From: Flavobacteriaceae bacterium GF1
Lineage (GTDB): Bacteria; Bacteroidota; Bacteroidia; Flavobacteriales; Flavobacteriaceae
Assembly (NCBI GenBank): GCA_009797885.1
Contig: WNKP01000007.1
Span: forward strand, 62,001-126,000
Direction: 5' to 3'
DNA length: 64,000 nucleotides
The translations under genes were made by a program, and so were the position numbers. Positions 18,538 through 42,912 of the stretch are shown in pieces (position 1 is the first letter of the stretch; every line of letters begins with the position of its first letter). The notes under the pieces are model-generated. The model did not search any database. It saw nothing but the letters and a program-made list of their open reading frames with translations, and had not been told where the DNA came from.

Positions 18538-18553
18538 ATTATGCATGCATAAT
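18538..18553. promoter_or_regulatory. Palindromic operator candidate ATTATGCATGCATAAT (site 1)
   Basis: A perfect 16-bp palindrome that lies 17 bp upstream of the -33 element of the SGNH gene and 15 bp beyond the end of ybfF. The identical 16-mer lies at the centre of the 26-bp palindrome upstream of etfB (42802-42827). No other copy was noticed in the window. Confidence 0.65.
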
Positions 18554-18568
18554 AAAATGGGGTGAATT

Positions 18569-19342
18569 TTAACGATTTAGGAATTCCAGGGATTTGATGA
18601 AAAAAGCCTTTGGATTCTCTGCATGTAGCCAATGACCTGCCTGATCAATGGTAGCTATCGTGGCCTTTGGAAAGTGTTTTTTGATAAGGGTGGCATCGTT
18701 GGGATGGATATATTCCGATCGGCTGCCCCTTAAAAACAGTGTAGGTTCCCCAAAAGTCTCCATTTCCGAAATGGCCTCCCCAATTTCCTCCAACTTGTTT
18801 TGGAGTACGGGCAGATTGAAACGCAAACCTAATTGTCCTTTTTCCACCCAAAACAGGTTTTTCAGCAAAAACTGACGGATTCCAAAATCAGTGAGCGATT
18901 CTGACAACTTCTTATCGGCTTCCGATCTGGTTTTGATCTCGTCAAAATCTAAGGTGTTCAGTGCAGTAACAATAGCTTGGTGGTGTGGGGGATAATATTT
19001 AGGGGCAATGTCGGCCACTACCAATTTTTCCAACTTTTCCGGAAATTCCACGGCAAACTGCATTGCCGTTTTTCCACCCATGGAATGACCTAAAACATGG
19101 GCCTTGGTAGTGTCATGGTACTCCATATAGGTATTAAGGTCCTGCGCCAAAATTTCATAATTGAATTCTTCTGAATGAAAACTTCGCCCATGGTTTCTTT
19201 GGTCGATCAAGTGTACTTGAAAGCCATTTTCGGCATATTTGTTTCCTAAAGTTTTCCAATTATCGGACATTCCAAGAAACCCATGGAGTATAAAAAGGGG
19301 ATGGCCATCCCCTATAATGGTGGAGTGAAGGATTTTATTCAT
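18569..19342 (-). CDS. Alpha/beta-fold hydrolase, YbfF-like esterase
   Basis: 257 residues. Typical alpha/beta-hydrolase features: an oxyanion HGFLG loop (20-24), DQRNHGRS after strand 4, nucleophile elbow GHSMGG with Ser87, and a C-terminal AGHWLHAENP with the catalytic His. The whole layout matches E. coli YbfF, an esterase active on short acyl and possibly acyl-CoA substrates. The start codon overlaps the pdxJ stop by 4 bp (ATGA), so the two genes are translationally coupled in that order, though no pathway link is known. Cytoplasmic; the exact substrate is open. Confidence 0.85.
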   Translation of the reverse strand: MNKILHSTIIGDGHPLFILHGFLGMSDNWKTLGNKYAENGFQVHLIDQRNHGRSFHSEEFNYEILAQDLNTYMEYHDTTKAHVLGHSMGGKTAMQFAVEFPEKLEKLVVADIAPKYYPPHHQAIVTALNTLDFDEIKTRSEADKKLSESLTDFGIRQFLLKNLFWVEKGQLGLRFNLPVLQNKLEEIGEAISEMETFGEPTLFLRGSRSEYIHPNDATLIKKHFPKATIATIDQAGHWLHAENPKAFFIKSLEFLNR

Positions 19343-20052
19343 TTCAAGCGATGTAAATACATGTTCACCACATTTTCCAAACCAAGATAAATGGACTCGC
19401 AGATAAGGGCATGCCCTATGGAGACCTCAAGTAGGTCGGGAATGCTTTCCTTAAAAAAAGCAATGTTGTCCAAGTTTAGGTCATGTCCTGCATTGATTCC
19501 CAATCCCATCTTTTGTGCTACTTCGGCAGCTTTTATAAAAGGAACAATACCTTCCTTGTTTCCCTCGGCATAGGTTTTTGCAAAACTTTCGGTGTACAAT
19601 TCAATTCTATCGGTCCCTGTTGCAACGGCCCCTTCCACCATTTTGGGATCGGGATCTACAAATATGGAGGTGCGGATTCCATTTTCCCTAAAAGTGCCTA
19701 TGGTGTCCTTTAGAAAATCCTTGTGTCTTAAAGTGTCCCAGCCTGCGTTGGAAGTAAGGGCGTTCTCGGCATCAGGAACAAGGGTCACCTGGGTAGGCTT
19801 TACCTTTAGCACCAAATCTACAAATTTTGGTATGGGATTACCTTCTATATTAAATTCGGTCTTTACGACCGATTTTAAATCCAGGGCATCCTGGTAGCGG
19901 ATATGGCGCTCATCCGGTCTTGGATGAATGGTGATTCCTTGCGCCCCAAAAGCTTCAATATCCTGTGCGGACTGCACTATATTTGGCATGTTACCTCCCC
20001 TTGAATTTCGTAAAGTAGCCAGCTTGTTGATGTTTACACTGAGTTTTGTCAT
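19339..20052 (-). CDS. pdxJ: Pyridoxine 5'-phosphate synthase
   Basis: 237 residues, a TIM-barrel enzyme that condenses 1-deoxyxylulose 5-phosphate with 3-amino-2-oxopropyl phosphate to pyridoxine phosphate, the last ring-forming step of DXP-dependent vitamin B6 synthesis. Recognisable family segments are LSVNINKLATLRNSRGGNMP at the start, GITIHPRPDERHIRYQD, VTLVPDAENALTSNAGWD, RTSIFVDPD, GINAGHDLNLDN and VSIGHALICES near the end. The length is normal. It is the first gene of a two-gene unit with the YbfF-like hydrolase. Confidence 0.97.
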   Translation of the reverse strand: MTKLSVNINKLATLRNSRGGNMPNIVQSAQDIEAFGAQGITIHPRPDERHIRYQDALDLKSVVKTEFNIEGNPIPKFVDLVLKVKPTQVTLVPDAENALTSNAGWDTLRHKDFLKDTIGTFRENGIRTSIFVDPDPKMVEGAVATGTDRIELYTESFAKTYAEGNKEGIVPFIKAAEVAQKMGLGINAGHDLNLDNIAFFKESIPDLLEVSIGHALICESIYLGLENVVNMYLHRLK

Positions 20053-20074
20053 GGTCTAAAACTGTTGGAGCGAG

Positions 20075-20082
20075 CAAAAATA
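20075..20082 (-). promoter_or_regulatory. -7 box TATTTTTG for pdxJ
   Basis: Exact TAnnTTTG match on the minus strand, 22 bases upstream of the pdxJ start codon. Confidence 0.55.
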
Positions 20083-20117
20083 CAAAATGGGCACACCTTT
20101 TGCGCTGTATTAATTTG

Positions 20118-20125
20118 TAGTTTTG
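20118..20125 (+). promoter_or_regulatory. -7 box TAGTTTTG for the CBS-nadK unit
   Basis: Exact TAnnTTTG match 15 bases before the ATG at 20141, in the 88-bp divergent gap with pdxJ. It probably drives the start of the envelope-biogenesis run. Confidence 0.55.
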
Positions 20126-20140
20126 CCTTGATTTTTAATC

Positions 20141-20800
20141 ATGAACATACAAGAACACATCGTAACGTCCTTACCTGTTTTTCAAGTAACCGAAAACTTG
20201 AATAAGGTCATCTCCTTTTTTGAGGAAACCACGTTCTCACATGTTGCCGTAGCGGAAAAAGATGGTTTTTTGGGGTTGTTGTCCGAAAATGACCTGGCCT
20301 GTTTTGAGCCGGAAAGGACAATTGAGGAATTTCGCTATCAATTGGAGACTTTTCATGTAACCAAAGAAACCCTTTGGTTGGACGTTTTGGAGGTCTTTGC
20401 CCGGAACGAGGCGAATATACTTCCCGTTTTGGATACCAATGCCCATAGGGTACTGGGATACTATGATCTTAATAATGTGGTTTCCCAATTCATAGGAACA
20501 CCTTTCTTTACCGAACCCGGGGGTATTTTAGTGGTTTCAAAGGGGATTAAGGATTATTCCCTGAGTGAGATTTCCCAAATAGTGGAGAGTAATAACGGCA
20601 AATTATTGGGAGCCCTTGTAACCGATAACCAAAACGATTTGGTACAGGTGACCCTTAAAATCAACAGTGGCAATCTCAACGAGGTCATTCAAACATTTAG
20701 ACGCTACAGTTATAACATATTGTTCGGTAACAATGATGACCAATTTTTGGAAGATTTAAAAGAGCGCTCTGCCTATTTGGACAAATATCTAAACGTCTAA
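20141..20800 (+). CDS. CBS-domain protein
   Basis: 219 residues, soluble. Two CBS motifs make up the first ~125 residues (IVTSLPVFQVTENLNKVISFFEETTFSHVAVAEKDGFLGLLSENDL and ETLWLDVLEVFARNEANILPVLDTNAHRVLGYY). These pair to bind adenine nucleotides. The C-terminal ~80 residues look like an ACT-type ligand-binding fold (GGILVVSKGIKDYSLSEIS, then LVQVTLKIN). The stop codon is one base from the nadK start, so a link with NAD(P) metabolism is plausible, for example sensing an adenine nucleotide. No function is established for this flavobacterial family. Confidence 0.82.
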   Translation: MNIQEHIVTSLPVFQVTENLNKVISFFEETTFSHVAVAEKDGFLGLLSENDLACFEPERTIEEFRYQLETFHVTKETLWLDVLEVFARNEANILPVLDTNAHRVLGYYDLNNVVSQFIGTPFFTEPGGILVVSKGIKDYSLSEISQIVESNNGKLLGALVTDNQNDLVQVTLKINSGNLNEVIQTFRRYSYNILFGNNDDQFLEDLKERSAYLDKYLNV

Positions 20801-20801
20801 C

Positions 20802-21683
20802 ATGAAAGTCGCTATCTATGGCCAAGTGTTACAGGAACATGATGTGGTGCATGTCCATAGTCTGTTGGACGCCCTAAAAGAGGAAGGGGCTTTCATCGCC
20901 ATAGAAAAAGAATTTCTTGCCCTTTTAAATTCCCATACAAAAATCGGGGCGTTTTCCAGTTTTACACAAGAGAAGGGGCTGGACAGTTCTTTTGGGTTAT
21001 TTGTAAGCTTTGGTGGTGATGGAACAATGTTACGGGCCATCTCCTATATAGGACATTTGGGCATTCCCATAGTTGGTGTCAACACTGGACGATTGGGTTT
21101 TTTGTCCACCTTTAAAAAGGAGGATGCTCGAAAATTGGTTGCTGAGTTCGTAGCCGGTAATTTTACCTTGGAAGAAAGGAGCTTGGTGGAAATCAGCTCG
21201 GATTCCAATATTGGGGAATTTGGGGAGCTTAATTTTGCGCTGAACGAGATTACGGTCAGTCGTAAGGATACTACCTCTATGATAACCGTTGAAACATTTT
21301 TAAATGATGAGTATTTGACCTCGTATTGGGCCGATGGACTTATTGTCTCCACACCTACGGGTTCCACAGGGTATTCCTTGAGTTGTGGCGGTCCGGTCAT
21401 GGCCCCTACGGCCAAATCCTTAGTGCTCACCCCCATAGCTCCACATAACTTGAACGCACGCCCCTTTGTGATTTCCGATGATACCAAAATTCGGTTAAAG
21501 GTTTCGGGCAGGGAAGAGCACCATCTGGTTTCTTTGGATTCCAGGATTGCCACAATTCCAAACGGAAAGGAGATTATAGTACAAAAGTCACCTTTTACCA
21601 TCAATATGGTGGTGTATACATCGGAGAGCTTTCTAAAAACACTTCGCAATAAGCTTCTTTGGGGGGAAGACCGCCGTAACTAA
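20802..21683 (+). CDS. nadK: NAD kinase
   Basis: 293 residues. Phosphorylates NAD to NADP with ATP. The family motif GGDGTML is at residues 71-77, followed by GVNTGRLGFLST, a conserved NE/D pair in LNEITVSRKD, and the glycine-rich stretch ADGLIVSTPTGSTGYSLSCGGPV that forms the NAD pocket. The length is normal for bacterial NadK. It lies between the CBS protein gene (1-base gap) and the DUF6089 gene. Confidence 0.97.
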   Translation: MKVAIYGQVLQEHDVVHVHSLLDALKEEGAFIAIEKEFLALLNSHTKIGAFSSFTQEKGLDSSFGLFVSFGGDGTMLRAISYIGHLGIPIVGVNTGRLGFLSTFKKEDARKLVAEFVAGNFTLEERSLVEISSDSNIGEFGELNFALNEITVSRKDTTSMITVETFLNDEYLTSYWADGLIVSTPTGSTGYSLSCGGPVMAPTAKSLVLTPIAPHNLNARPFVISDDTKIRLKVSGREEHHLVSLDSRIATIPNGKEIIVQKSPFTINMVVYTSESFLKTLRNKLLWGEDRRN

Positions 21684-21787
21684 GGGTTTCAATAACAATA
21701 AATGGCGTTAAAAGTTGTTTTACAAGGGAACACTATTTGGCAATGAAAGGGGCTTTCCCTGCCATTGTTAGTTATGCAACCGTATTT

Positions 21788-22471
21788 ATGAGAACAATTG
21801 TTTTGGTTTGTTTGTTCGCCATTGGCAGTATCAAGGCGCAAACCTATGAAGTTGGTTTATTTGCTGGTGGAATGAACCATATTGGTGATGTGGGCAGGAC
21901 CAATTACATCTTACCATCAGGGGGGGCTTTTGGAGCCCTGTTCAAATGGAACAAGAGAAAACGATATGCCTGGAGGGCAAGTGTCTATAGGGGAAGTTTT
22001 GTTGCGGACGACTCAAAGTCCAGTAAAGCCTCCCGACAGCAACGTGGATTTCGTGTAGAAAATTCAATCACCGAATATTCCGCAGGAATGGAATTCAACT
22101 TTGTGGATTATAACCTACATAAGTTGGGACCGGCCTTTACTCCTTATTTATATACCGGGTTTACCTATTTTAGATATGACTTTAACTACATAGATGCACA
22201 ACAAGTTCAGGATATTAACCAAAAAGATGGTAGTTTCGCGATTCCAATGACCGTTGGGGCCAAGTTTCGTTTAAACCAGTTTTTAATTATAGGGGCGGAA
22301 ATAGGGGCTAGGTATACCTTTACGGATAATTTGGATGCCAGTAATCCGGAAGGTTCGAATTTTGAACAATTCAGATTTGGCAATATTTTAAGTGAAGATT
22401 GGTACGTGTTTTCGGGTATTACGTTGACCTACACTTTTGGAAGAAAACCTTGCCAAGACTGTTTTGAATGA
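21788..22471 (+). CDS. DUF6089-type secreted/outer-membrane protein
   Basis: 227 residues. The chosen start gives a clean signal peptide (MRTIVLVCLFAIGSIKAQ). A longer frame could start at ATG 21743 or TTG 21737. The mature part is beta-rich, with alternating aromatic residues and a small-barrel look (YEVGLFAGGMNHIGDVG, FTPYLYTGFTYFRYDF, FIVGAEIGARYTFTDNLD-like strand, WYVFSGITLTYTFGRKPC), and ends in a CxxC-containing tail. In flavobacteria this family sits between nadK and uppS just upstream of bamA, as here (3 bp before uppS). A role in outer-membrane assembly is suggested by position only. Confidence 0.75.
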   Translation: MRTIVLVCLFAIGSIKAQTYEVGLFAGGMNHIGDVGRTNYILPSGGAFGALFKWNKRKRYAWRASVYRGSFVADDSKSSKASRQQRGFRVENSITEYSAGMEFNFVDYNLHKLGPAFTPYLYTGFTYFRYDFNYIDAQQVQDINQKDGSFAIPMTVGAKFRLNQFLIIGAEIGARYTFTDNLDASNPEGSNFEQFRFGNILSEDWYVFSGITLTYTFGRKPCQDCFE

Positions 22472-22474
22472 AAA

Positions 22475-23215
22475 ATGAGCAATCTGGACCACATCAATGA
22501 AGAGAATTTGCCAAGGCACATCGCCATTATAATGGATGGCAATGGTAGATGGGCAAAGCAACGCGGTAAGATGAGGGTTTTTGGTCATGAGAATGGGGTC
22601 GAAGCTGTGCGGAGAACCGTTGAGAACTGTGCAAAACTTAAAATAGATTTCCTCACCCTTTATGCGTTTTCCACAGAAAACTGGAAGCGACCGAAAATTG
22701 AAGTACAGACCCTGATGCGTTTGTTGGTAGCCTCCCTTCGAAAAGAATTAAAAACACTCAACGACAATAGCATTCGTTTAAATGCCATCGGAAATTTGGA
22801 TTTTCTTCCTGCAAAGGTGGCCAAAGAGCTAAATGAAGTCATCTTAAAAACATCAAACAACAAAGGATTGACCCTAACTTTGGCCCTTAGTTACGGTTCT
22901 CGGGAAGAACTAAAATCGGCTGTTAAGGCCATAAGTGCCAAAGTTAAAAATAACATAATTTCAGAGGATGATATTGACGAAACCGTTATTAATACTCATC
23001 TTTACACGCATGACCTGCCAGATGTGGACCTGCTTATTCGTACAAGCGGAGAGCACAGAATAAGCAATTTTCTACTTTGGCAAATTGCATATGCCGAATT
23101 ATATTTTATTGACGTATTTTGGCCCGATTTTAATGAGCAGCATTTGGTTGATGCAATTATCAATTACCAGAATAGAGAACGAAGATTTGGAAAGACTAGT
23201 GAACAACTCGGTTAG
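22475..23215 (+). CDS. uppS: Isoprenyl (undecaprenyl) diphosphate synthase
   Basis: 246 residues, a cis-prenyltransferase that makes the C55 lipid carrier for peptidoglycan and O-antigen. The signature HIAIIMDGNGRWAKQRG carries the catalytic Asp21. FLTLYAFSTENWKRP and the C-terminal DLLIRTSGEHRISNFLLWQ segment, followed by YAELYFIDVFWPDF, are canonical. One small variation is SGEHRISNFLLWQ, where many family members have GExRxSNFLLWQ. The gene overlaps the start of bamA. Confidence 0.97.
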   Translation: MSNLDHINEENLPRHIAIIMDGNGRWAKQRGKMRVFGHENGVEAVRRTVENCAKLKIDFLTLYAFSTENWKRPKIEVQTLMRLLVASLRKELKTLNDNSIRLNAIGNLDFLPAKVAKELNEVILKTSNNKGLTLTLALSYGSREELKSAVKAISAKVKNNIISEDDIDETVINTHLYTHDLPDVDLLIRTSGEHRISNFLLWQIAYAELYFIDVFWPDFNEQHLVDAIINYQNRERRFGKTSEQLG

Positions 23216-25847
23216 AGGGTTAAAAAAAATTACGTTACTCGGCAAAATTCTCCTTCTTTTTTTAGCAATTCCACAGATGACTTCGGCGCAACAGACCTCG
23301 CTTGAGGCTGCTAAGAAATACATTCTTGGAGGGTTGGAGGTTACAGGGCTTCAAAGCTATAATGAACAGACCGTAAAAACATATACCGGGCTTAGGATAG
23401 GTCAACCCATCACCATTCCAGGGGAGGAGATCAGTGGTGTTATAAAAAAACTTTGGGGGCTGGAACTTTTTAGTGAATTGGATTTCTTTTATGCGGTTGA
23501 GGACGATAAGGTTTTCCTTGAATTGCGCATAAAAGAGCGACCAACACTTTCCGGGGTTACGGTTTATGGGGTAAAAAAGCGAAAGGTCCAAGGTATTATT
23601 GATGATACGGATTTAAAGAAGGGAAAGAAAATCACCGAGAGCCTCATCGCAAATACCAAAAACTACCTTGAGAATAAATACAAAAAACAAGGCTTTCTTA
23701 ATGCAAAGGTGACCATTGCCACTGCAAAGGATACCGTTGGCACCAATAGCGAAAGTATGGTCGTTAACGTTAAAAAGGGGGATAAGGTCAAAATTAAAAG
23801 TATAGAATTTGAAGGAAATGAAAAAGTTTCCAACAAAAGATTGCGCAAGGCCTTGGGAAAGGCCAAGATTCGAAAGAAAAAACTCGGGGCCTTCTGGCAA
23901 CGCTCAAAATATACGGAAGAAGAATACAAAGAAGGGTTGGATAATTTGGTGGATGCCTATGCCGAAAGGGGTTACAGGGATGCCAGGGTGGTTTCCGATA
24001 CCTTTATTAAATTGGATGAAAACAATATCGCCTTAAAAATAGGGGTGGAAGAAGGGGACCGTTATTATTTTGGGAATGTTGATTTTGTAGGCAACTCGGT
24101 GTATACCGATCGGCAATTGGCCCAAGTCCTCGGAATAAAGAAAGGGGATGTCTACAATGGGGTACTTTTGAAGGAACGAATTGCGGACGACTCAAAACCA
24201 GATGGAGAGGATTTAACCAATTTATACCAAAATAATGGATATCTCTTCTCAAGTATTAATCCGGTGGAAGTTTCTGCGATAAATGACACCATAAATTTTG
24301 AAATACGGATCATTGAGGGAAAGGAAACCTTTCTGAACCATGTTACGGTTACCGGAAATGACAAAACCAATGACCATGTCATTTTTCGTGAACTCCGCAC
24401 AAGGCCCGGACAACGATACAGCAAGGACAATATCATAAGAAGTGTACGTGAATTGGGCCAATTGGGATTCTTTGACGCAGAACAGATCGTTCCGGACATT
24501 CAGAATCCAGATCCAAATTCCGGAACTGTAGATCTAAAATATAGTTTGGTGGAAGCAGGTTCCAGTCAAATTGAACTCCAAGGAGGTTTTGGGGGTGGCG
24601 GTTTTATAGGGACATTGGGTCTGTCCTTTAATAACTTTTCCTTTCAAAACATTTTCAATGGGGAAGCCTATAAGCCCGTACCCATGGGAGATGGCCAAAC
24701 CTTTGCCCTTAGGTTACAGGCCAGTAGATCCTTTAGGGTATACAGCCTTAACTTTGCCGAACCATGGTTGGGTGGTCGAAAACCGGTTCGATTTAATCTT
24801 TCTTTTTCAAGAACACAGCAATTCGATACCAGATTTGATAACCGGGGTCGATTGGATATAGATAGGGACCGGAGTTTTTCCATAACCGGGGTTTCCATGG
24901 GACTGGCAAAACGGGTTCAGTGGCCAGACGACTTTTTTACCATTTCCCATTCCGTGAATTATCAACTTTATGATTTTAATGACTTCAATAGGGGGTTGTT
25001 CAATTTTGGGAACGGTAGCTCCAATTCTTTGACCTATACTTTAGGTATTGCCAGAAGTTCTCAAGGTCCGAGTAGGATTTTTCCATTGACCGGTTCCAAT
25101 TTTGAGCTTACGGCAAGGCTTACCCCACCATTCTCCCTTTGGAGCGGCAAGGATTTTAAGGCCATTCGAGAGGAAATAGAGGAAGTTACCCTGGAATTAT
25201 TGGAAATTGGCCCAAATGATCCAGCGGCACCGGCCTTAAGCGATCAATTGGAACGTTTGGAGGAAGAGCGTTTTAAATGGTTGGAGTTTTTCAAGATCAA
25301 GTTCAGGGGGGATTGGTACACCCGCTTGGTGGACAAATTGGTCTTGAGAACCAATGCCGAGTTTGGCTTCTTAGGGGCGTTCAACAACGATATTGGCAAT
25401 GTTCCCTTTGAACGATTTTTTGTAGGGGGTGACGGACTAGGAAACTTTACCCTGGACGGAAGGGAAATCATACAATTACGCGGCTACGAGAACAGTTCCA
25501 TTACCCCTGTAAGCACCAATCCAATTACAGGTGGACAAGAGCAGGATGGCGGTACCATCTACAATAAGTATACAATGGAGCTCAGATATCCCCTCACGCT
25601 AAAGCCTTCTGCTTCCATTTATGTACAGTCTTTTTTGGAAGCAGGTAACGCTTGGAATAATTTTAATGATTTTAATCCGTTTCAGTTAAAGAGATCGGCT
25701 GGAGTGGGGCTACGAATTTTTATGCCAGCCTTTGGACTCTTGGGGATAGATTTTGGATACGGCTTCGACGAAGACCTTCGCCCACAATCCGTAGGCAATG
25801 GCCCAAGTGGATGGCAAACCCACTTCATTATTGGTCAACAGTTTTAA
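23199..25847 (+). CDS. bamA: Outer-membrane protein assembly factor BamA
   Basis: 882 residues with the proposed start. A signal peptide (LLGKILLLFLAIPQMTSAQ) precedes five POTRA repeats up to about residue 450, including FEGNEKVSNKRLRKALG, DFVGNSVYTDRQLAQVLGIKKGD and VTVTGNDKTNDHVIFRELRTRPGQ. A 16-strand barrel follows and ends in FIIGQQF with the C-terminal Phe. It inserts beta-barrel proteins into the outer membrane. No ATG lies just before the signal peptide: the frame is open back to 23085, inside uppS, and GTG 23199 gives the most sensible leader (TTG 23187 and ATG 23151 are alternatives). A charged insertion of about 50 residues interrupts the barrel (25141-25300). Confidence 0.93.
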   Translation: MNNSVRGLKKITLLGKILLLFLAIPQMTSAQQTSLEAAKKYILGGLEVTGLQSYNEQTVKTYTGLRIGQPITIPGEEISGVIKKLWGLELFSELDFFYAVEDDKVFLELRIKERPTLSGVTVYGVKKRKVQGIIDDTDLKKGKKITESLIANTKNYLENKYKKQGFLNAKVTIATAKDTVGTNSESMVVNVKKGDKVKIKSIEFEGNEKVSNKRLRKALGKAKIRKKKLGAFWQRSKYTEEEYKEGLDNLVDAYAERGYRDARVVSDTFIKLDENNIALKIGVEEGDRYYFGNVDFVGNSVYTDRQLAQVLGIKKGDVYNGVLLKERIADDSKPDGEDLTNLYQNNGYLFSSINPVEVSAINDTINFEIRIIEGKETFLNHVTVTGNDKTNDHVIFRELRTRPGQRYSKDNIIRSVRELGQLGFFDAEQIVPDIQNPDPNSGTVDLKYSLVEAGSSQIELQGGFGGGGFIGTLGLSFNNFSFQNIFNGEAYKPVPMGDGQTFALRLQASRSFRVYSLNFAEPWLGGRKPVRFNLSFSRTQQFDTRFDNRGRLDIDRDRSFSITGVSMGLAKRVQWPDDFFTISHSVNYQLYDFNDFNRGLFNFGNGSSNSLTYTLGIARSSQGPSRIFPLTGSNFELTARLTPPFSLWSGKDFKAIREEIEEVTLELLEIGPNDPAAPALSDQLERLEEERFKWLEFFKIKFRGDWYTRLVDKLVLRTNAEFGFLGAFNNDIGNVPFERFFVGGDGLGNFTLDGREIIQLRGYENSSITPVSTNPITGGQEQDGGTIYNKYTMELRYPLTLKPSASIYVQSFLEAGNAWNNFNDFNPFQLKRSAGVGLRIFMPAFGLLGIDFGYGFDEDLRPQSVGNGPSGWQTHFIIGQQF

Positions 25848-25951
25848 CAAAATTGGAAAATTCGGCCATATTTAAAAGCGCTAAAGCATTCATTTTAAAA
25901 TATTTAAATATTTTGGCATGATATTTTCTATGTAAAAAATCGGATTCAACA

Positions 25952-26791: not shown

Positions 26792-26835
26792 ACTGAACAC
26801 TAAAATTGTATACTCAAATTAAACTATTAGGAATT

Positions 26836-27342: not shown

Positions 27343-27364
27343 TACTTAAGTTAAAAAAGGATTT

Positions 27365-27405
27365 AAAACCGTCGGTGCTTGTCAGTTAAAGTCCGACGGT
27401 TTTTT
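27365..27405 (+). terminator. Terminator after the ompH pair
   Basis: AAAACCGTCGG (27365-27375) pairs with CCGACGGTTTT (27393-27403) and is followed by more T. It ends just 13 bases before the murI ATG, so murI must be reached by read-through or from a promoter not recognised here. Confidence 0.8.
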
Positions 27406-27417
27406 AGTTGCAAATTT

Positions 27418-29077: not shown

Positions 29078-29081
29078 TGGC

Positions 29082-29101
29082 TATCTTTAGCAACAAAGAT
29101 A
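29082..29101. promoter_or_regulatory. Overlapping divergent -7 boxes
   Basis: TATCTTTA (29082-29089) on the plus strand and TATCTTTG (29101-29094) on the minus strand form an inverted repeat in the 28-bp gap between the PLP enzyme and the 2TM gene. The minus-strand box matches TAnnTTTG exactly and the plus-strand box has one mismatch. Each would give a leader of about ten bases. Confidence 0.5.
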
Positions 29102-29105
29102 AGCA

Positions 29106-30649: not shown

Positions 30650-30673
30650 TAATTCAAAACTCGCCATTGGAGA

Positions 30674-30955: not shown

Positions 30956-30956
30956 A

Positions 30957-31928
30957 TCAATTTTTCTTAAAAATATAATCTTTAAAATATCCCTTTTTGT
31001 CCTCAAATGAAGTGAGGATTTGGAGTCCGGCTTCATTGGCCAACCATTTGACCACCTCGTCATCATATTTTTGGGAAATTTCGGTATGGATGGTCTCCCA
31101 AGGTTTAAAGGAAACCCCCAAATCCAAGGCGTCAATAAAAACTTCCTGTGCTTTTTTGGATACTAAATAACTTTTTGCCGTACCATTTTCAGGGTCGTAG
31201 ACTTCCCAATGTAGAAACCCCTCCAAATCAAAGTTGCCGCCCAATTCCATATTAATGCGCTGCAGAACGTTTTTGTTGAAGGCTTCGGTAATACCTGTTT
31301 TGTCATTATAGGCATCCAAAACAACCTGGGGATGTTTTTTTTGGTCCATTCCCATAAAAAGTAAGTCGTCCGGGGCCATTACGTCCTTTAATTGCCTCAA
31401 AAAGGAAATGGCATTGGGATGCAGTAAGTTGCCAATGTTGGAGCCCAAAAACAGGATGACCTTCCGTTTTTCCTGTTGTTTCCCAATAGCCGCCAAGGTC
31501 TCAAAATAGGTGCCTTGAAGCGGATTGATCGTAATTGGGGGCAGTTCCTTGATCAATGTTTTTTCAAGACTATCCAGGGCATTTTGGCTGATATCAATGG
31601 GACGGTAGTCAAAACGGTACCCATTGTCAATTAAATGTCTCAGTAATATTTTGGTCTTTTTGCCATCTCCCGCCCCTAATTCAAAAAGACTAAAATCCTC
31701 GTCCTTATGGGAAAACAGTTTTGCAATCTCTGCAACGTGATCTAAAAGTATTTCGAGCTCACTATCGGTCAAATAGTACTCGGGCATATCCATAATCTGT
31801 TGGAACAATCGATCTCCGGTTTCGTCATAGAAGTATTTGGACGACAAGTATTTGGGGAAGCTCGTCAATCCTTCCCGTACCTCATTGGCAAAAACCGAGG
31901 TAAGGTGTTGGGTGGTGTTCTCTTGCAT
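30957..31928 (-). CDS. egtD: L-histidine N(alpha)-methyltransferase EgtD
   Basis: 323 residues, the usual length. Trimethylates histidine to hercynine with three SAM. Recognisable parts are GLTSFPKYLSSKYFYDETGDRLFQQIMDMPEYYLTDSE at the N-terminus, the SAM motif LFELGAGDGKKTKILL, YRPIDIS, LFLGSNIGNLLHPNA and, near the end, EISQKYDDEVVKWLANEAGL. All fit EgtD (methyltransferase family 33). It lies between egtB (16 bp upstream) and DUF427. With EgtB it supplies the first two steps of ergothioneine synthesis. Confidence 0.93.
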   Translation of the reverse strand: MQENTTQHLTSVFANEVREGLTSFPKYLSSKYFYDETGDRLFQQIMDMPEYYLTDSELEILLDHVAEIAKLFSHKDEDFSLFELGAGDGKKTKILLRHLIDNGYRFDYRPIDISQNALDSLEKTLIKELPPITINPLQGTYFETLAAIGKQQEKRKVILFLGSNIGNLLHPNAISFLRQLKDVMAPDDLLFMGMDQKKHPQVVLDAYNDKTGITEAFNKNVLQRINMELGGNFDLEGFLHWEVYDPENGTAKSYLVSKKAQEVFIDALDLGVSFKPWETIHTEISQKYDDEVVKWLANEAGLQILTSFEDKKGYFKDYIFKKN

Positions 31929-31944
31929 GTAATTTTTGTCGAAA

Positions 31945-33099
31945 TTATTGTGCCAACCTTAATCCGGTAAACTGCCATCTCAAGGAGGGTTGAAAAAAGT
32001 TGCGGTACGTGGGTCGGGTATGATGACTTGGTGTGGCTATGGAAGCTCCTCGAAGAACTTTTTGATTGACCATAAATTTACCATTGTATTCCCCCAAAGC
32101 GCCATCTGCCTTTTGGTAGTTGGGGTATGGTAGATAGGCACTTTCAGTCCATTCCCATCGTTTTCCCCAGGGAAAATAGGGCGCAGCGACTTCCCATTCA
32201 AACTCCGTTGGAAGGCGTAAACCTTTCCATTGTGCATAAGCAAAGGCTTCGTAATAGGAAATATGGGTTATTGGGGCATCCAATGGAACTTTCTGCAATC
32301 CCGAGAAGCTATAATGGTACCATTCGCCTTCTACAGGGTGCCAATATAGTGGGGCTGAGATTTGATTTTGGTTTACCCAGTCCCATCCTTCGGCATGCCA
32401 AAGCTCAAAGCGGGCATATCCCCTATCACTTACAAACTCCAAAAACTCCCTATTGGTCACCAACTTGTTCGAAATTTGGTAAGAATGAAGATAAACCTTG
32501 TGCCTGCCGAGTTCATTATCGTAACAGAACCCACTGGAACCATGCCCAATATCATAAACCCCTTCATCCACGGAAACCCAATCTTGCTGGTACGTTTCTA
32601 TCGGATGTTCCGCAATGGTTTTGGAATATACGGGAAGCAATGGGTTATTGCCCAAAATGAATTTAATATCGGTCAATAGCAATTCCTGATGCTGCTTTTC
32701 ATGATGGATGCCGATTTCCAATAAATCCTGAAGTTCCTTTGACTGGTCTGATTCAAAAAGACTTTTAATACCCTCGGTTACATAATCCCGATATTCATAC
32801 ACTTTCTTGACCGAAGGTCTACTTAGGTTTCCCCTATCTGCCCGAACCACCCGTTTTCCTACCGTTTCATAATAACTATTGAAGACAAAGGAAAAATCGA
32901 CATCAAAAACCTTATAATTACTGGCGTAAGGCTTTAAGATGAACTCTTCAAAGAACCACGTAGTATGTCCCAGGTGCCATTTAGGTGGGCTTACATCCAC
33001 AACGGGCTGTACTACATAATCTTCAATTTCAAGGGGTTCACAAATCGCTTCGGAATGCTTTCGGGTTTCGATGAAAAAATCCAAAAGCGAAACAGTCAT
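31945..33099 (-). CDS. egtB: Ergothioneine-type sulfoxide synthase EgtB
   Basis: 384 residues. The N-terminal DinB-like domain supplies a three-histidine iron site: His45 in KWHLGHTTWFFEEF and His133/His137 in HHEKQHQELLLTD. The C-terminal formylglycine-generating-enzyme-like (sulfatase-modifying) domain follows (VSVDEGVYDIGHGSSGFCYDNE, LPTEFEWEVAAPYFPWGKRWEWTESAY, RPTYRNFFQP). EgtB couples O2 to C-S bond formation between hercynine and cysteine or gamma-glutamylcysteine. No egtA or egtC is nearby, so direct use of cysteine is plausible. ATG 33099 is preferred over 33105. An OvoA-like (ovothiol) activity cannot be excluded by eye, but the C-terminal methyltransferase of OvoA is absent. Confidence 0.9.
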   Translation of the reverse strand: MTVSLLDFFIETRKHSEAICEPLEIEDYVVQPVVDVSPPKWHLGHTTWFFEEFILKPYASNYKVFDVDFSFVFNSYYETVGKRVVRADRGNLSRPSVKKVYEYRDYVTEGIKSLFESDQSKELQDLLEIGIHHEKQHQELLLTDIKFILGNNPLLPVYSKTIAEHPIETYQQDWVSVDEGVYDIGHGSSGFCYDNELGRHKVYLHSYQISNKLVTNREFLEFVSDRGYARFELWHAEGWDWVNQNQISAPLYWHPVEGEWYHYSFSGLQKVPLDAPITHISYYEAFAYAQWKGLRLPTEFEWEVAAPYFPWGKRWEWTESAYLPYPNYQKADGALGEYNGKFMVNQKVLRGASIATPSHHTRPTYRNFFQPSLRWQFTGLRLAQ

Positions 33100-33155
33100 T
33101 AACATGAAAGGCAGTTTTTTTAAAGATAGTCAATAATCGAATTGACCAAGGGATT

Positions 33156-35362: not shown

Positions 35363-35580
35363 TGGGTTCAAATTAAAAGGTAAAATCTCACGAAAAGTTC
35401 ACGGGATCGTCCCAGCTACGGGGGTATTGGTCGTGAAAACCTTTGGGAAATTGCGAAAACTTAAAAAGAAAATACGTAACTACCTAAAATATAGGGTGTT
35501 GTAAAATTTGAAGTTTGTGTGAACTTTCTGCAACAACTTACAAATTTCTTTGTGATAGCATTAAAACATATATAAAAGCT

Positions 35581-37650: not shown

Positions 37651-37702
37651 GCTTATGAAAAAGAAAGATGTTTTGTAGTGTTGTTTATGCTTAATTAGTT
37701 GT

Positions 37703-37734
37703 AAAACGCCCAGACCTTGGTATGGGCGTTTTTT
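37703..37734 (+). terminator. Terminator after the repeat lipoprotein gene
   Basis: AAAACGCCCA (37703-37712) pairs with TGGGCGTTTT (37723-37732) around a 10-base loop and continues into T. It also lies between the convergent lipoprotein and thyA genes. Confidence 0.85.
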
Positions 37735-37793
37735 GAAGGAAAAACTTTTACTGTAACTGGATGATATCCGCCTAGATGTAAACATGATCTCCG

Positions 37794-38618
37794 TTAAACC
37801 GCAACCACGGCCTTAATGTGTGGATGTGGGTCATAATTCAATAGCGTGAAGTCGTTAAATGTAAAATCAAATATATCCTTGACCTCCGGGTTAAGGTGTA
37901 TGGTGGGCAAAGGCCTTGGTTCACGGGACAGTTGCAGTTCCACTTGCTCCAAATGGTTACTGTAAATATGGGCATCACCAAAAGTATGTATAAACTCTCC
38001 CGGTTCATAGCCACAAACCTGGGCCATCATTAAGGTAAATAGGGAGTAGCTGGCAATGTTAAAAGGAACGCCCAGGAAAATATCCGCACTGCGTTGGTAG
38101 AGCTGGCAACTCAGCCTGCCTTCGGCTACATAAAACTGAAAAAAGGCATGACACGGAGGTAATGCTGCCTTGCCGTTGGCCACATTTTCCGAAAAGGAAA
38201 CCGAGGTATCCGGTAAAACGCTGGGGTTCCAGGCAGAGACTAACATTCTACGACTATTGGGATTCGATTTTAAAGTTTCAACCACTTCTTTGATCTGGTC
38301 GATTTCCTCAGAGTTCCAATTTCTCCATTGATGGCCGTATACCGGGCCCAGGTCCCCATTTTCATCCGCCCACTCGTTCCAGATACGGACGCCGTTTTCC
38401 TGAAGGTAGCCCACATTGGTATCACCCCGTAAAAACCAGAGTAGTTCATGGACAATCGATTTTAAGTGCAACTTTTTCGTGGTCACCATGGGGAAACCTT
38501 CCTGTAGATCAAACCGCATTTGGTATCCAAAAACACTTATGGTCCCGGTTCCTGTGCGGTCGCCTTTTTGATTTCCTTGCTTTAAAACATGCTCTAATAA
38601 GTCATGATACTGCTTCAT
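37794..38618 (-). CDS. thyA: Thymidylate synthase ThyA
   Basis: 274 residues. Methylates dUMP with methylene-tetrahydrofolate. The nucleophilic cysteine is in [13 protein letters not shown], the folate/dUMP loop is [20 protein letters not shown], and the Arg-containing [20 protein letters not shown] is at the N-terminus, all as in E. coli ThyA. Upstream lie 254 bp without a gene and then nupC on the same strand, and FolA is also in the window. Confidence 0.97.
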
Positions 38619-38872
38619 TCAAAAGTATTTTTAAGATAAAATAATCAATTCAAGTGATTTCAGATGGCTGAAATGGTATCGAGGATAGGTTTTAAAAACC
38701 CGTTTTTGATACGTCTAAATCCGCTTCAAACACTCAAACTGACGTTTCTAAAAAATCCTAACTAAAGTAATGGGAATCCCAATCTTAAATTGGATAAGGA
38801 TACATCAGTTATAAAATAATTATCAACCAAAAAATCCCTAAACTCTGAGGTAGTGAATTTAGCCGAGGAGAT

Positions 38873-40297
38873 TTATCCAAGGATCATACCCGCAATGGTG
38901 GCAGAAATCAATGAGGCCAAGGTGCCACCAAGAACGGCACGCATTCCGAATTCGGATAAGGTCTTGCGTTGGCCTGGGGCCAGGGAACCAATACCGCCAA
39001 TTTGAATACCGATGGAAGCAAAATTCGCAAAGCCACAGAGCATATAAGTGGCCATAATAACGGACTTATTGTAGGTAAAATGGGTGATGCTGGCCATATT
39101 TTTGAGTTCGGCCAGCTGAATATATCCAACAAACTCACTGGCGGCCAATTTAATGCCCAACAATTGTCCCATGAGCATGATATCCTCGTTGTTTACACCG
39201 ATCAGCCACATCAATGGTGCGAAAACCGTTCCCAATATGGCTTCCAGGGAAAATGCTTCATAGGGTGAATTGGCAGCGATCCAATGGTTTAAGGTTGTCC
39301 AATCGCCCATCCAACCCAAAATTCCATTGATCATAGCGATAAAAGCCACAAAGACCAGGAGCATGGCTCCAACATTTAGTGCGAGTTTTAGTCCTTCCGT
39401 AGTTCCATTGGCAATGGCATCCAAAAAATTTGCCCCAATTTTATCGGAGGAAACATGTACATCGGTATTTATCCCTTCTGTTTGTGGATATAGTATTTTG
39501 GAGACCACAATGGCACCGGGAGCGGCCATCACGGATGCTGCAAGCAAGTGCTTTGCAAAAACCAATTGTAGCGCTGGGTCATCACCTCCCAAAAAACCAA
39601 TATAGGCGGCCAAAACAGCACCGGCAACGGTTGCCATACCACCAATCATGACCAGGAGGATTTCCGATTTGCTCATCTTCTCCAAATAGGCTTTGATCAG
39701 CAAGGGTGCTTCGGTCTGTCCCAAAAAGATATTACCGGCAATGGAAAGACTTTCCGCTCCGGAAATGCCCAAAGATTTGGTCAGCAACCACGCAAGTGCC
39801 TTGACCACTTTTTGAATAATCCCCAAATAGAACAACACCGAAGTGAGTGCAGAGAAGAAAACAATGGTGGGCAATACCTGAAAGGCAAAAATATATCCAA
39901 AAGTGTCCGTGTCCACCACTAGGCCTTCAAACAGGAACTTACTTCCGGAACGCGTAAAATCAAGGATGCTGATGAATACCTTTCCAATACTCTCGAATGC
40001 GATTTTCACAAAAGGTATTTTTAGGACCCCAATGGCAATGAGCAACTGGATGCCCAGACCAATCCCAACGGTTTTCCATTTAATGGCCCTTCGGTTGGCA
40101 CTGAACAGATATGAAATCAATATTAAAACGGCCATGCCCAAGGCTCCTCTGGCCAGTCCGCCCCAGGTAAAACCCTCATTGGGGACCAGTCTGTCCACCT
40201 CCGTGGAGGTTGATGTCAAAACCGCTGTTTCCTGGCCCAAGACCTCACCAAAGCATGCCAATAGCAAGATGAGCATCAAAAGTCCAGTTTTTCTCAT
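38873..40297 (-). CDS. Concentrative nucleoside transporter, NupC/CNT family
   Basis: 474 residues. About ten membrane helices after a cleavable-looking N-terminal helix (MRKTGLLMLILLLACFGEVLG) and a periplasmic linker, which are typical of Bacteroidota CNTs. Family motifs: GIQLLIAIGVLKIPFVKIAFESIG, the first hairpin region GNIFLGQTEAPLLIKAYLEKMSKSE, GGMATVAGAVLAAYIGFLG, IGVNNEDIMLMGQLLGIKLAASEFVGYIQL and CGFANFASIGIQIGGIGSLAP. Takes up nucleosides with Na+ or H+. The start at 40297 replaces an extension that would run into the upstream gene. It follows the bifunctional-nuclease gene by 16 bp and is probably cotranscribed with it. Confidence 0.92.
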   Translation of the reverse strand: MRKTGLLMLILLLACFGEVLGQETAVLTSTSTEVDRLVPNEGFTWGGLARGALGMAVLILISYLFSANRRAIKWKTVGIGLGIQLLIAIGVLKIPFVKIAFESIGKVFISILDFTRSGSKFLFEGLVVDTDTFGYIFAFQVLPTIVFFSALTSVLFYLGIIQKVVKALAWLLTKSLGISGAESLSIAGNIFLGQTEAPLLIKAYLEKMSKSEILLVMIGGMATVAGAVLAAYIGFLGGDDPALQLVFAKHLLAASVMAAPGAIVVSKILYPQTEGINTDVHVSSDKIGANFLDAIANGTTEGLKLALNVGAMLLVFVAFIAMINGILGWMGDWTTLNHWIAANSPYEAFSLEAILGTVFAPLMWLIGVNNEDIMLMGQLLGIKLAASEFVGYIQLAELKNMASITHFTYNKSVIMATYMLCGFANFASIGIQIGGIGSLAPGQRKTLSEFGMRAVLGGTLASLISATIAGMILG

Positions 40298-40313
40298 GTA
40301 AGGTTGGTTGGTT

Positions 40314-40940
40314 CTACTTTCGTTTGGAAATCTCGTCCCGTAGTTTGGCCGCTTTTTCGTAATCTTCGTTGGCAACGGCCTTGTCCAGTTCTTTATGAAG
40401 TTCCTCCAGGGTCATTTCCCGATAGGCATCACCTGCCCCAGATTCAATTTCCACGGTTTCCCCTTCTTGAAGGATTTCGTCCACCATAATGCTATCATCG
40501 TTTTCTTCATCTTTTTCCTTGGAAGAAAACTTCAAGAAAATGCCAGCCTTGTCCAAAATGGTTTTATAGGTAAAGATTGGCGCATTGAACCGCAGGGCCA
40601 GTGCAATGGCATCGCTGGTTCTTGCATCAACAATCTCTTCATCGCCATCCCGTTCGCTGATAATACTCGAGTAAAAAACACCATCCACCAGTTTGTGGAT
40701 AATGACCTGTTTTACCACAATGCCAAAACGATCGCAAAAGTTTTTGAACAGATCATGGGTCAAGGGTCTTGGCGGCTTTATTTCCTTTTCAAGAGCTATG
40801 GCTATGGACTGGGCCTCAAAGGCACCAATGACAATAGGCAGTTTTCGGTCACCTTCCACTTCGTTCAGAATAAGTGCATAGGCACCGTTCTGGGTCTGGC
40901 TATATGAAATCCCTTTTATTTTAAGTCGTACTAAACTCAT
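40314..40940 (-). CDS. Bifunctional nuclease (DUF151/BFN) with C-terminal UVR motif
   Basis: 208 residues. The first ~135 are the BFN domain: VRLKIKGISYSQTQNGAYALILNE, KLPIVIGAFEAQSIAIALEKEIKPPRPLTHDLF and ARTSDAIALALRFNAPIFT. The C-terminal EMTLEELHKELDKAVANEDYEKAAKLRDEISKRK is a UvrB/UvrC interaction motif (UVR). The fusion is common in Bacteroidota. BFN homologues have been reported to show both RNase and DNase activity in plants. The bacterial role is unclear, and the UVR motif suggests contact with repair or protease partners. It is followed closely by the nucleoside transporter. Confidence 0.88.
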   Translation of the reverse strand: MSLVRLKIKGISYSQTQNGAYALILNEVEGDRKLPIVIGAFEAQSIAIALEKEIKPPRPLTHDLFKNFCDRFGIVVKQVIIHKLVDGVFYSSIISERDGDEEIVDARTSDAIALALRFNAPIFTYKTILDKAGIFLKFSSKEKDEENDDSIMVDEILQEGETVEIESGAGDAYREMTLEELHKELDKAVANEDYEKAAKLRDEISKRK

Positions 40941-40960
40941 GAAATATCTTAGGATAAAAT

Positions 40961-41005
40961 AAAAAAGCTGTTCAAATAAGTGGCTCTATGCATTATCTGA
41001 ACAGC
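40961..41005 (-). terminator. Terminator downstream of etfA
   Basis: On the minus strand a stem of GCTGTTCA/TGAACAGC extends with ATAA/TTAT and further partial pairs, and is followed by TTTTTTATTTTAT. It separates the etfBA operon from the nuclease gene. Confidence 0.8.
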
Positions 41006-41032
41006 CGCTTCAAAGAAGCAAAGTAACAAAAT

Positions 41033-42001
41033 TTAGGCGTTCTGGGCCTTAAATTCCTTCAATTTTTCGATGAGTTCGGGAACCACCTCAAAGGCATCCC
41101 CAACTATACCATAATCTGCGGCTTTAAAGAAAGGAGCCTCAGGATCATTGTTAATGACCACCTTTGTTTTGGAAGCACTTACACCGGCCAAATGCTGAAT
41201 TGCACCTGAAATTCCGATGGCTATGTAAAGATTGCTCGCTACAGGCTTTCCCGTTTGTCCCACGTGCTCCCCGTGGGGCCTCCAGCCCAAGTCGGAAACA
41301 GGTTTGGAACAAGCGGTTGCCGCTCCCAAAACATCGGCCAATTCTTCTATCATTCCCCAATTTTCAGGGCCTTTAAGTCCACGGCCTGCAGAGACCACAA
41401 TATCGGCATCGGCAATGGTTGCCTTCCCGACCACTTTATCCACTTCCACGGATTTTACACCAAAATCATTATCGTTAATGTTGGGATCAAAGGGCTCCAC
41501 AACGGCATCCGTAGTATTTTCAACAAGGCCAAATGCATTATTGGAAACACCTATAATTTTAACTTCGGAAGAGATTTCGGTATGGGCAAAACCCTTGTTG
41601 CTAAAGGCTGTCCTTTTAACCACAAAAGGGGAAATACCCTCTGGTGCCGCTACAACGTTTGGAACATATCCGGCATTGAGTCTTGCCGCAAGGATTCCAC
41701 TTAAATATTTACTGTCCGCGCTTGAGCATACAATGATGACCTTACTCCCTTCCAATTCTGCGGCCTGTGCAATGGCACTGGCATACGCTTTTGCGTTAAA
41801 GCCTTTTAGGGAGTCATTGGATATTCCCAACACTTTTGAAACGCCATAAGTTCCCAATTCATCGGCATTTTCGGCATTTATGGCAAGGGCAGTGACACTT
41901 TCGCCCATTTGATCGGCAACGTGCTTGGCATAGGACGCCACTTCAAAAGCGTTTTTCTTAAATTTTCCGTTATCAGTTTCTGTATATACGAGTATTGACA
42001 T
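41033..42001 (-). CDS. etfA: Electron transfer flavoprotein subunit alpha
   Basis: 322 residues. The C-terminal FAD-binding domain is complete: VSAGRGLKGPENW, AATACSKPVSDLGWRPHGEHVGQTGKPVASNLYIAIGISGAIQHLAGVSASKTKVVINNDPEAPFF. The N-terminal half is the ETF alpha/beta fold. It takes electrons from acyl-CoA dehydrogenases through FAD and passes them to ETF:quinone oxidoreductase. It is 11 bp downstream of etfB and ends at a strong terminator, so etfBA is a two-gene operon. Confidence 0.96.
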   Translation of the reverse strand: MSILVYTETDNGKFKKNAFEVASYAKHVADQMGESVTALAINAENADELGTYGVSKVLGISNDSLKGFNAKAYASAIAQAAELEGSKVIIVCSSADSKYLSGILAARLNAGYVPNVVAAPEGISPFVVKRTAFSNKGFAHTEISSEVKIIGVSNNAFGLVENTTDAVVEPFDPNINDNDFGVKSVEVDKVVGKATIADADIVVSAGRGLKGPENWGMIEELADVLGAATACSKPVSDLGWRPHGEHVGQTGKPVASNLYIAIGISGAIQHLAGVSASKTKVVINNDPEAPFFKAADYGIVGDAFEVVPELIEKLKEFKAQNA

Positions 42002-42012
42002 AACTTTTTGAA

Positions 42013-42759
42013 TTAAAGGGCTTTAGCTTCGTTGTGCAATAAATTCACCAGTTCACCTACGTTTCCGGCATCTACCAATTTTACCGGTCCCTTGGCTGCG
42101 GGACGCTCAAACTTTTTGTCATTGGTTGGGGAAGGTGCATCAATTGGGTCTACAATGTTCAAGGCTTTTTTTCTGGCCATCATGATTCCGCGCATATTGG
42201 GAATACGAAGGTCGCTTTCTTCAACCAGACCCTTTTGCCCTCCTATGATGAGTGGAAGACTGGTGCTTATTTTTTCCTTACCGCCATCAATTTCCCTTTG
42301 GGCCGTAGCCTCGGTACCATCAACTTCCAAATCAATGCAGGTATTTACAAAGTTCATGTCCAACAAAGAGGCCATAATCCCAGGTACCATTCCGCCATTG
42401 TAATCAATGGACTCACGTCCGGCAATGACAAGGTCATATCCTCCATTTTTGACGATTTCGGCGAGTTGTCTGGCCACAAAAAAACCATCTTTGGGCGCAG
42501 CATTTATTCGAATGCCCTCATCAGCGCCAATGGCCAATGCCTTGCGTATAGTTGGTTCAACGGAAGCATCGCCTACAGTGGCCACATGTACGGTGGCACC
42601 TTGTTTTTCCTTGAACCACATGGCCCTTGTTAGACCAAATTCATCATTTGGATTAATTACAAACTGTACGCCATTGGTGTCAAACTTGGTATCATCATCG
42701 GTAAAGTTGATTTTTGACGTGGTATCGGGTACATTACTGATACAAACCAAAATCTTCAT
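42013..42759 (-). CDS. etfB: Electron transfer flavoprotein subunit beta
   Basis: 248 residues from MKILVCISNVPDTTSKINF (the frame runs 13 codons further, across the leader). The signature region for ETF-beta, DLVIAGRESIDYNGGMVPGIMASLLDMNFV, is present, followed by TSLPLIIGGQKGLVEESDLRIPNMRGIMMARKKAL, the recognition loop that contacts dehydrogenases. It forms a heterodimer with EtfA. Promoter and operator elements can be read in its 150-bp divergent gap with pdhB. Confidence 0.96.
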   Translation of the reverse strand: MKILVCISNVPDTTSKINFTDDDTKFDTNGVQFVINPNDEFGLTRAMWFKEKQGATVHVATVGDASVEPTIRKALAIGADEGIRINAAPKDGFFVARQLAEIVKNGGYDLVIAGRESIDYNGGMVPGIMASLLDMNFVNTCIDLEVDGTEATAQREIDGGKEKISTSLPLIIGGQKGLVEESDLRIPNMRGIMMARKKALNIVDPIDAPSPTNDKKFERPAAKGPVKLVDAGNVGELVNLLHNEAKAL

Positions 42760-42780
42760 ATGTAGAAATTTTATCGGCGT

Positions 42781-42788
42781 CAAAGATA
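42781..42788 (-). promoter_or_regulatory. -7 box TATCTTTG of etfBA
   Basis: Exact TAnnTTTG match on the minus strand, 21 bases upstream of the etfB ATG. The -33 position expected from the usual spacing falls at the edge of the 26-bp palindrome 42802-42827, so a protein bound there should affect RNA polymerase. Confidence 0.6.
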
Positions 42789-42801
42789 TTAAAAACAATC
42801 T

Positions 42802-42827
42802 AATTTATTATGCATGCATAATAAATT
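42802..42827. promoter_or_regulatory. 26-bp palindromic operator candidate (site 2)
   Basis: A perfect 26-bp palindrome with core ATTATGCATGCATAAT (42807-42822), extended by five further symmetric A/T bases on each side. It lies 42 bp before etfB and abuts its -33 region, and is about 50 bp upstream of the pdhB -7 box. The same 16-bp core occurs at 18538-18553. Confidence 0.75.
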
Positions 42828-42885: not shown

Positions 42886-42912
42886 TTCGCACTTTAAAAA
42901 CGCTCCATCAAT

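Follow-up and report, generated by a model that had tools for sequence, protein, structure and literature searches.

The 64,000-nt stretch analyzed here, hereafter the window, is C60:62001-126000 of the 5.28-Mb genome of Flavobacteriaceae bacterium GF1 (62 contigs). It contains two copies of the palindrome ATTATGCATGCATAAT, one upstream of a gene for a GDSL-type lipoprotein and the other upstream of the etfBA genes for the electron transfer flavoprotein (ETF), and both are candidate operators of a lipid regulon. The features at the two positions are listed below; the -7 elements are putative and follow the general Bacteroidota promoter consensus.

16842..18437, minus strand: GDSL-type lipoprotein of 531 aa, regulon member (Pfam Lipase_GDSL_2, 41.6 bits, cut-off 32.9)
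18491..18498, minus strand: putative -7 element TAGTTTTG of the lipoprotein gene, 47 bp from the palindrome centre
18538..18553, no strand: 16-bp putative operator palindrome ATTATGCATGCATAAT, exact, before the GDSL lipoprotein gene and present at this promoter in 11/11 genus genomes
41033..42001, minus strand: etfA, ETF subunit (Pfam ETF_alpha, 109.6 bits, and ETF, 98.7 bits)
42013..42759, minus strand: etfB, ETF subunit (Pfam ETF, 90.3 bits)
42781..42788, minus strand: putative -7 element TATCTTTG of etfB, 26 bp from the palindrome centre
42802..42827, no strand: 26-bp perfect palindrome between etfB and the pdhB-like gene, candidate operator with extended arms, present at etfB in 11/11 genus genomes
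42878-42885: putative -7 element TATTTTTG of the pdhB-like gene, 63 bp from the palindrome centre
42913..43893, plus strand: pdhB-like gene (transketolase-type E1 beta; Pfam Transket_pyr and Transketolase_C), divergent from etfB and a possible second target

As the initial annotation had stated, both copies of ATTATGCATGCATAAT are exact, the second at 42807-42822 inside a 26-mer that equals its own reverse complement, and a scan of the 64-kb window found no third copy within 3 mismatches. Likewise, TGCATGCA occurs in the window at the two palindrome sites only. The first site is located past the 3′ end of an alpha/beta hydrolase gene and before the lipoprotein start; the two genes share the minus strand. 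The second lies between the divergent etfB and pdhB-like genes, a setting absent from that annotation. Judging from its GDSL domain, the lipoprotein would be an esterase that releases fatty acids. As the doublet, judged on the window alone, is only mildly unusual by chance (at up to 3 mismatches, shuffled sequences averaged 0.45 matches compared with the 2 observed, and 7 of 100 shuffles reached 2), the analysis was extended to the whole genome and to relatives.

The genome holds eight copies of the 16-mer, of which four are exact, three differ at one position and one differs at two; beyond these, the best matches already carry 3 mismatches. All eight retain TATGCATGCATA (the exact core), which has 8 copies in the genome compared with 0 for the reversed control, and a search with TATGCRYGCATA (the RY core) returned the same eight sites, again with 0 for its reversed control. 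ATGCATGCAT has 11 copies against 0 for a reversed control that is itself palindromic; the remaining three copies are without TA flanks on both sides, and two of them lie within open frames.

Each core copy precedes a gene for lipid metabolism or electron transfer. Site 1 is located before the gene of a 149-aa MarR-type protein. Behind this gene come fadB (801 aa), the thiolase gene fadA (396 aa) and fadE (603 aa; scoring 722.8 bits with NF058590, cut-off 600), and an AMP-binding fadD-like gene ends just upstream of this operon. Site 2 precedes etfB-etfA, and site 3 a pair of genes for a 442-aa membrane 4Fe-4S protein and a 259-aa CCG protein (split EtfD), with an MlaD-type gene ending just upstream on the same strand. 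Site 4 is that of the GDSL lipoprotein gene in the window. Site 5 lies behind what we take to be a glmS-like gene and before the gene of a 911-aa TonB-dependent receptor. At site 6, one gene encodes a hot-dog thioesterase and a divergent one an NMO-family protein (92.8 bits with the FabK model, far under the cut-off), and site 7 precedes a KASIII gene whose product scores under the FabH cut-off (197.9 versus 292.1). The genes at site 8 encode a TetR_C_23 protein, a protein presumed from its sequence to be ABC1-kinase-like, a wax-ester synthase/DGAT scoring 386.6 bits (cut-off 309.95), a hydrolase of the S33 type and a protein resembling glycerol-3-phosphate acyltransferases. The copies are thus few and non-random, where many copies at random positions would have spoken against the lipid regulon guessed at in the initial annotation, and we regard it as nearly certain that the sites form a regulon. 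A search of the genome for the FadL family gave one PF03349 match, under the cut-off.

The TetR_C_23-led cluster at L032:707-11276 (G000 C60, outside the window), with its wax-ester synthase/DGAT, acyltransferase-like and S33 hydrolase genes, may represent storage-lipid genes. Small phasin-like proteins, named by eye, are encoded beside the L032 site, and the 96-aa one has no Pfam match.

The gene pair at site 3 (L028:7851-9969; G000 C14), behind the MlaD-type gene, encodes two adjacent proteins that match residues 14-333 (442-aa protein, E 1.5e-41) and 496-744 (259-aa protein, E 8.3e-77) of 9ojn_A. They carry Pfam Fer4 families and CCG and are homologous to the membrane, Fe-S and CCG portions of mycobacterial EtfD (PDB 9OJN; PMC13083937). 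Here EtfD is split in two genes, which a shared site ties to the fad and etf genes. This split EtfD is predicted to serve EtfBA.

A MarR-type regulator had been among the initial guesses, and the MarR gene at C3:55120-55566 fits it, having a site before itself and leading the MarR-fadB-fadA-fadE operon. Its product contains a MarR winged-helix domain (PF01047, 44 bits, cut-off 24.6); Pfam gives MarR-type families only, and no named NCBIfam regulator model reaches its cut-off with this protein. The ortholog in L135 (98% identical), modelled as a monomer with pLDDT 87.1, folds as a MarR winged helix, and its best PDB matches are all of the MarR family, namely Variovorax MarR, HcaR and MepR.

The site accompanies this gene in relatives. 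Among loci selected by MarR alone, it lies upstream of the MarR gene in 39/39 (34 exact, 5 RY variants), and TATGCRYGCATA does so in 80/80 named relatives (74 exact, 6 variants), which are the best-scoring ones and 64-98% identical. In a larger set, all 154 distinct MarR genes have a site upstream when the central two bases are left free, these being always AT, GT/AC or GC; the set is biased, as part of its loci were fetched for holding a site. One alignment excluded L182. Outside the family, 24 genomes bear MarR, with the RY core upstream in 13, a one-mismatch core in 6, a two-mismatch core in 1 and none in 4. The flanks of the core also vary by genome: a G-core-C flank is found at 5/5 sites of G545 and 3/4 other f8/f10 sites, and at 0/146 sites of Flavobacteriaceae. 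Sites of one genome thus change together, which fits a single reader protein, and it is very likely that this MarR reads them, as far as can be judged from the genomes. In five order-level loci (L227 and L414-L417), the MarR promoter holds two core copies, 83 bp apart in four and 78 bp in one.

Within the genus, the core is present in 11/11 genomes with 5-8 copies each, 79 in total compared with 3 control copies. We examined 76 of the 79 (8 own, 60 + 8 from relatives; those left out are three of G010), and 73 of these are located at the eight orthologous promoters: MarR, etfB, the GDSL lipoprotein, the TonB receptor and thioesterase/NMO with 11 each, and EtfD, KASIII and TetR with 6 each. The remaining three are one at an acyl-CoA dehydrogenase gene (L043) and the hairpin-forming L037 and L056, each with an rplI-like gene on one side and a second TonB receptor on the other. 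A 70%-identical receptor has the core at the same spot in another genus (L341), without pairing arms.

In the family, the exact core occurs in 233/299 genomes and the control in 24, and the MarR ortholog in 282/299, one each. Among the genomes with MarR, 51 lack the exact core, and 43 of these have TATGCRYGCATA, which brings those with a site to 274/282. Conversely, 15 of the 17 genomes without a MarR match are also without the exact core; the RY core was searched for in the other two, G148 and G217, which have sites. A second Fisher table was set aside, as it combined different searches. A phylum sample of 296 genomes contained 46 with core and MarR, 8 with MarR only, 11 with the core only and 231 with neither (Fisher p 6e-35, or 2e-14 without the family, values overstated by the relatedness of the genomes). 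Outside the class, the core is found as single copies only, in 9 genomes.

The site was also examined in other genera. We inspected 75 family loci, representing the listed sites of 25 genomes (G166 partially) and four of G148, with adjoining pairs merged to one locus in four cases. They comprise MarR-fadB (14), etfB (16), the TonB receptor behind glmS (10), thioesterase/NMO (2), NMO-like genes (10), KASIII or FabH (9) and other TonB receptors (3). At L314, the site is preceded by an rpmF-like frame and, after 177 bp, followed by fabH (348 bits, cut-off 292.1) and then a biotin-carrier-like frame; five more loci have a KASIII match at coordinates like those of L314, as judged by match position only. 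Further away, all five sites of the class-level genome G545 are located before fadA-like, etfB, MarR-fadB, EtfD-like and acyl-CoA-dehydrogenase genes, and the three sites of the order-level genome G319 at MarR-fadB (two) and etfB. In G511 and G403, 4/9 and 2/4 sites, respectively, lie at EtfD-like, acyl-CoA-dehydrogenase or thiolase genes. Conservation before etfB, which the initial annotation had proposed to compare among relatives, extends from 11/11 genus genomes through the 16 of 75 loci in other genera to the class-level L231, whose EtfB is 50% identical.

Two further settings were seen in genomes without a MarR match. At L233:220-2683 (G148 C35), two core sites adjoin two secreted ester-hydrolase-like genes, the product of one belonging to the PET hydrolase-like family PF12740 (170.8 bits) and carrying a Por secretion tail. 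At L225:1501-1842 of the small family genome G217, the core precedes an acyl-carrier-protein gene and then a FabF-like frame (named by eye).

The position of the sites relative to the promoters was compared next to the Bacteroidota consensus, in which -33 is TTG or TTTG and -7 is TAnnTTTG, with distances measured from the palindrome centre to the start of TAnnTTTG. This distance is 17-18 bp at the fad/MarR promoter (10/10 genus promoters and 77/80 named relatives), 16-17 bp at the EtfD promoter (6/6), 25-26 bp at the etfB promoter (6/10, the remaining four without a canonical element there), 24-25 bp at the NMO promoter (9/9) and 47 bp at the lipoprotein promoter (10/10 genus promoters). None of the TonB-receptor promoters has a full element, and TATCTT is found at 45 bp in 8/9; at the KASIII and TetR promoters the element is mostly missing. 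The thioesterase site lies 18-21 bp before ATG in 9/9. For the pdhB-like gene, the element is 61-63 bp from the centre in 10/10 genus promoters, and this constant spacing (in the window, the region 42796-42893) suggests that pyruvate dehydrogenase may be co-controlled.

At etfB, the palindrome overlies the expected -33 position. The lipoprotein and TonB-receptor sites are located upstream of -33; at the lipoprotein promoter, TTG begins 24 bp from the palindrome centre. The centre-to-element distances to these putative elements therefore agree with the earlier placement of the site upstream of -33 at the lipoprotein and against -33 at etfB. A sigma-70 scan of the lipoprotein promoter gave two weak matches compared with 0.7 expected. 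The sites at fad/MarR, EtfD and etfB lie on the core promoter, which points to repression by occlusion. Moreover, the perfect palindrome spans 24-32 bp at MarR, etfB and EtfD in 27/28 cases and 12-18 bp at the other five targets in 45/45, which suggests that affinity is graded among the targets.

We estimate a probability of about 80% that the palindrome is the operator of an autoregulated MarR repressor, its ligand aside. The mechanism that we infer would run as follows. A MarR homodimer would bind TATGCRYGCATA, which at the core targets is lengthened by A/T arms. At the fad and split etfD operons, where the site falls between the expected -33 and -7, bound MarR would block RNA polymerase, and at etfB it would do so by covering the expected -33. 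In consequence, beta-oxidation, ETF, EtfD and MarR itself would be repressed, and such repression at fad, etfB and etfD is likely. A lipid metabolite would release MarR, and long-chain acyl-CoA made by FadD is the somewhat favoured candidate, by analogy with other regulators. At the lipoprotein and the TonB receptor, the site lies further upstream at a fixed 45-47 bp, where activation or another sign may apply; we put forward a different sign at these sites only tentatively.

Several observations weigh against this repressor model. The RY core is missing from 8 of the 282 family genomes with MarR. G148 has 7 cores, including those at etfB and the TonB receptor, and G217 has 2, with no MarR match found in either genome. 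Outside the family, MarR is without an upstream site in G403, G488, G511 and G557 (4/24); L398 of G511 has no RY core, and its nearest relaxed match has 4 mismatches. Eleven of the 75 family loci adjoin none of the reference genes, and 5/9 sites of G511 and 2/4 of G403 are located at genes without an evident lipid role. Two further f8 MarR sites are flanked by G...A, not G...C. Finally, related genomes are not independent, so that the p-values of the phylum sample overstate the association.

The same protein could serve a different purpose, as a FabT-like sensor of fatty-acid sufficiency that uses acyl-ACP as corepressor and tunes both synthesis and degradation, without release by acyl-CoA. 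Sites before KASIII genes in 6/11 genus genomes and 9/75 family loci are in line with this idea, as are the L314 arrangement of fabH and a biotin-carrier-like frame and the G217 site before an acyl-carrier-protein frame, and FabT, a MarR protein, has an acyl-ACP corepressor (PMC5487221, PMC13046290). However, the most constant targets are catabolic (fadBAE and etfBA) and the regulator has a fadD-like gene as its neighbour, and we consider a FabT-like role unlikely.

Alternatively, the regulon could be real and the palindrome read by another protein, for instance the TetR_C_23-type protein on C60 or a global factor, with the MarR operon as a mere target. One of the eight sites does precede the TetR_C_23 gene, G148 and G217 have sites with no MarR match, and the MarR genes of G403, G511 and G557 are not preceded by a site; G403 and G511 nevertheless have sites at EtfD and acyl-CoA-dehydrogenase genes. 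In contrast, MarR is the most constant site-bearing gene, and MarR and the sites co-occur across the family and the phylum. The TetR protein was set aside as regulator because its site is found in 6/11 genus genomes and the regulon in 11/11. A reader other than MarR is therefore improbable.

That the palindromes are RNA stem-loops, i.e., terminators of the upstream genes, is highly improbable and was rejected as a general account on folding energies: strong hairpins form at L037 (-15.6 kcal/mol) and L056 (-15.7 kcal/mol) before a T run behind the rplI-like gene, and the etfB site folds at -7.6 kcal/mol, but the TonB-receptor (-0.5 kcal/mol) and lipoprotein (-4.5 kcal/mol) sites fold no better than shuffles, the core bases themselves are conserved beyond pairing at a fixed distance from the -7 elements, and L341 has the core before the same TonB receptor as L037 without pairing arms. 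The latter finding led us to revise the view of L037 and L056 as mere terminators; as L341 shares the core at this receptor, they may be operators too. L383 may be similar to these two hairpin copies.

The proposed MarR repressor invites comparison with known regulators of lipid metabolism. FadR of Escherichia coli belongs to the GntR family and has a different operator. Like FadR, the MarR described here would be a single regulator of fatty-acid degradation and perhaps, judging by where its sites lie, of synthesis too, and its release by acyl-CoA is proposed by analogy; unlike FadR, it is of the MarR family, with no GntR-type domain found, and its proposed regulon also covers ETF, EtfD, the TonB receptor and lipid storage genes. 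The PsrA/FadR-type TetR regulators of fatty-acid degradation are TetR-family DNA-binding proteins and differ in the same respect, the proposed regulator being MarR-type and the TetR_C_23 protein merely one target.

FabT of streptococci, enterococci and lactococci heads the fatty-acid synthesis operon and uses an acyl-ACP corepressor (PMC13046290, PMC5487221). The MarR of this study resembles it as a MarR-family lipid regulator that is the first gene of its controlled operon and, from the sites alone, would be autoregulated; it differs in that its gene heads fadBAE rather than a fatty-acid-synthesis operon and belongs to another phylum. It may thus work like FadR or FabT, with no evidence of being either; one defining feature of each among those tested was not found. 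CouR, FerC and HcaR are MarR repressors of hydroxycinnamate catabolism, and CoA thioesters act as releasing ligands of CouR and FerC (PMC5487221), which shows that such compounds can release MarR repressors. They likewise repress catabolic genes, and HcaR is among the best structural matches, although they act on aromatic substrates and single pathways; in sequence, the CouR chain 6c28 is matched weakly (E 0.027). A full-text literature search found, by title or start of abstract, no paper on this motif or regulon or on a flavobacterial regulator of fatty-acid degradation, with subscription journals largely outside its coverage.

Elsewhere in the window, at 30957-33105 on the minus strand, a gene for a histidine-specific methyltransferase (PF10017, 334 bits) adjoins an FGE-sulfatase/DinB-type gene, a pair that we take to resemble ergothioneine-type EgtD/EgtB.

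Flavobacteria rank among the main consumers of organic matter in the sea. The regulon presents a candidate lipid master switch: MarR probably controls fat breakdown, electron carriers, lipid uptake and storage in many flavobacteria. A bolder version, which we offer with reserve, is that one MarR acts in this way in much of Flavobacteriaceae and related Bacteroidia, repressing beta-oxidation, ETF and split EtfD and, depending on site placement (45-47 or 61-63 bp), activating or tuning uptake, KASIII/fabH, wax-ester/triacylglycerol storage and perhaps pyruvate dehydrogenase. If true, this MarR would decide whether acetyl-CoA is drawn from lipids or from sugars. With TATGCRYGCATA as the code, the regulon can be recognized across hundreds of genomes; the code also flags the TonB receptor and the GDSL lipoprotein as candidate parts of lipid uptake and ties the wax-ester/triacylglycerol storage genes to the same control.

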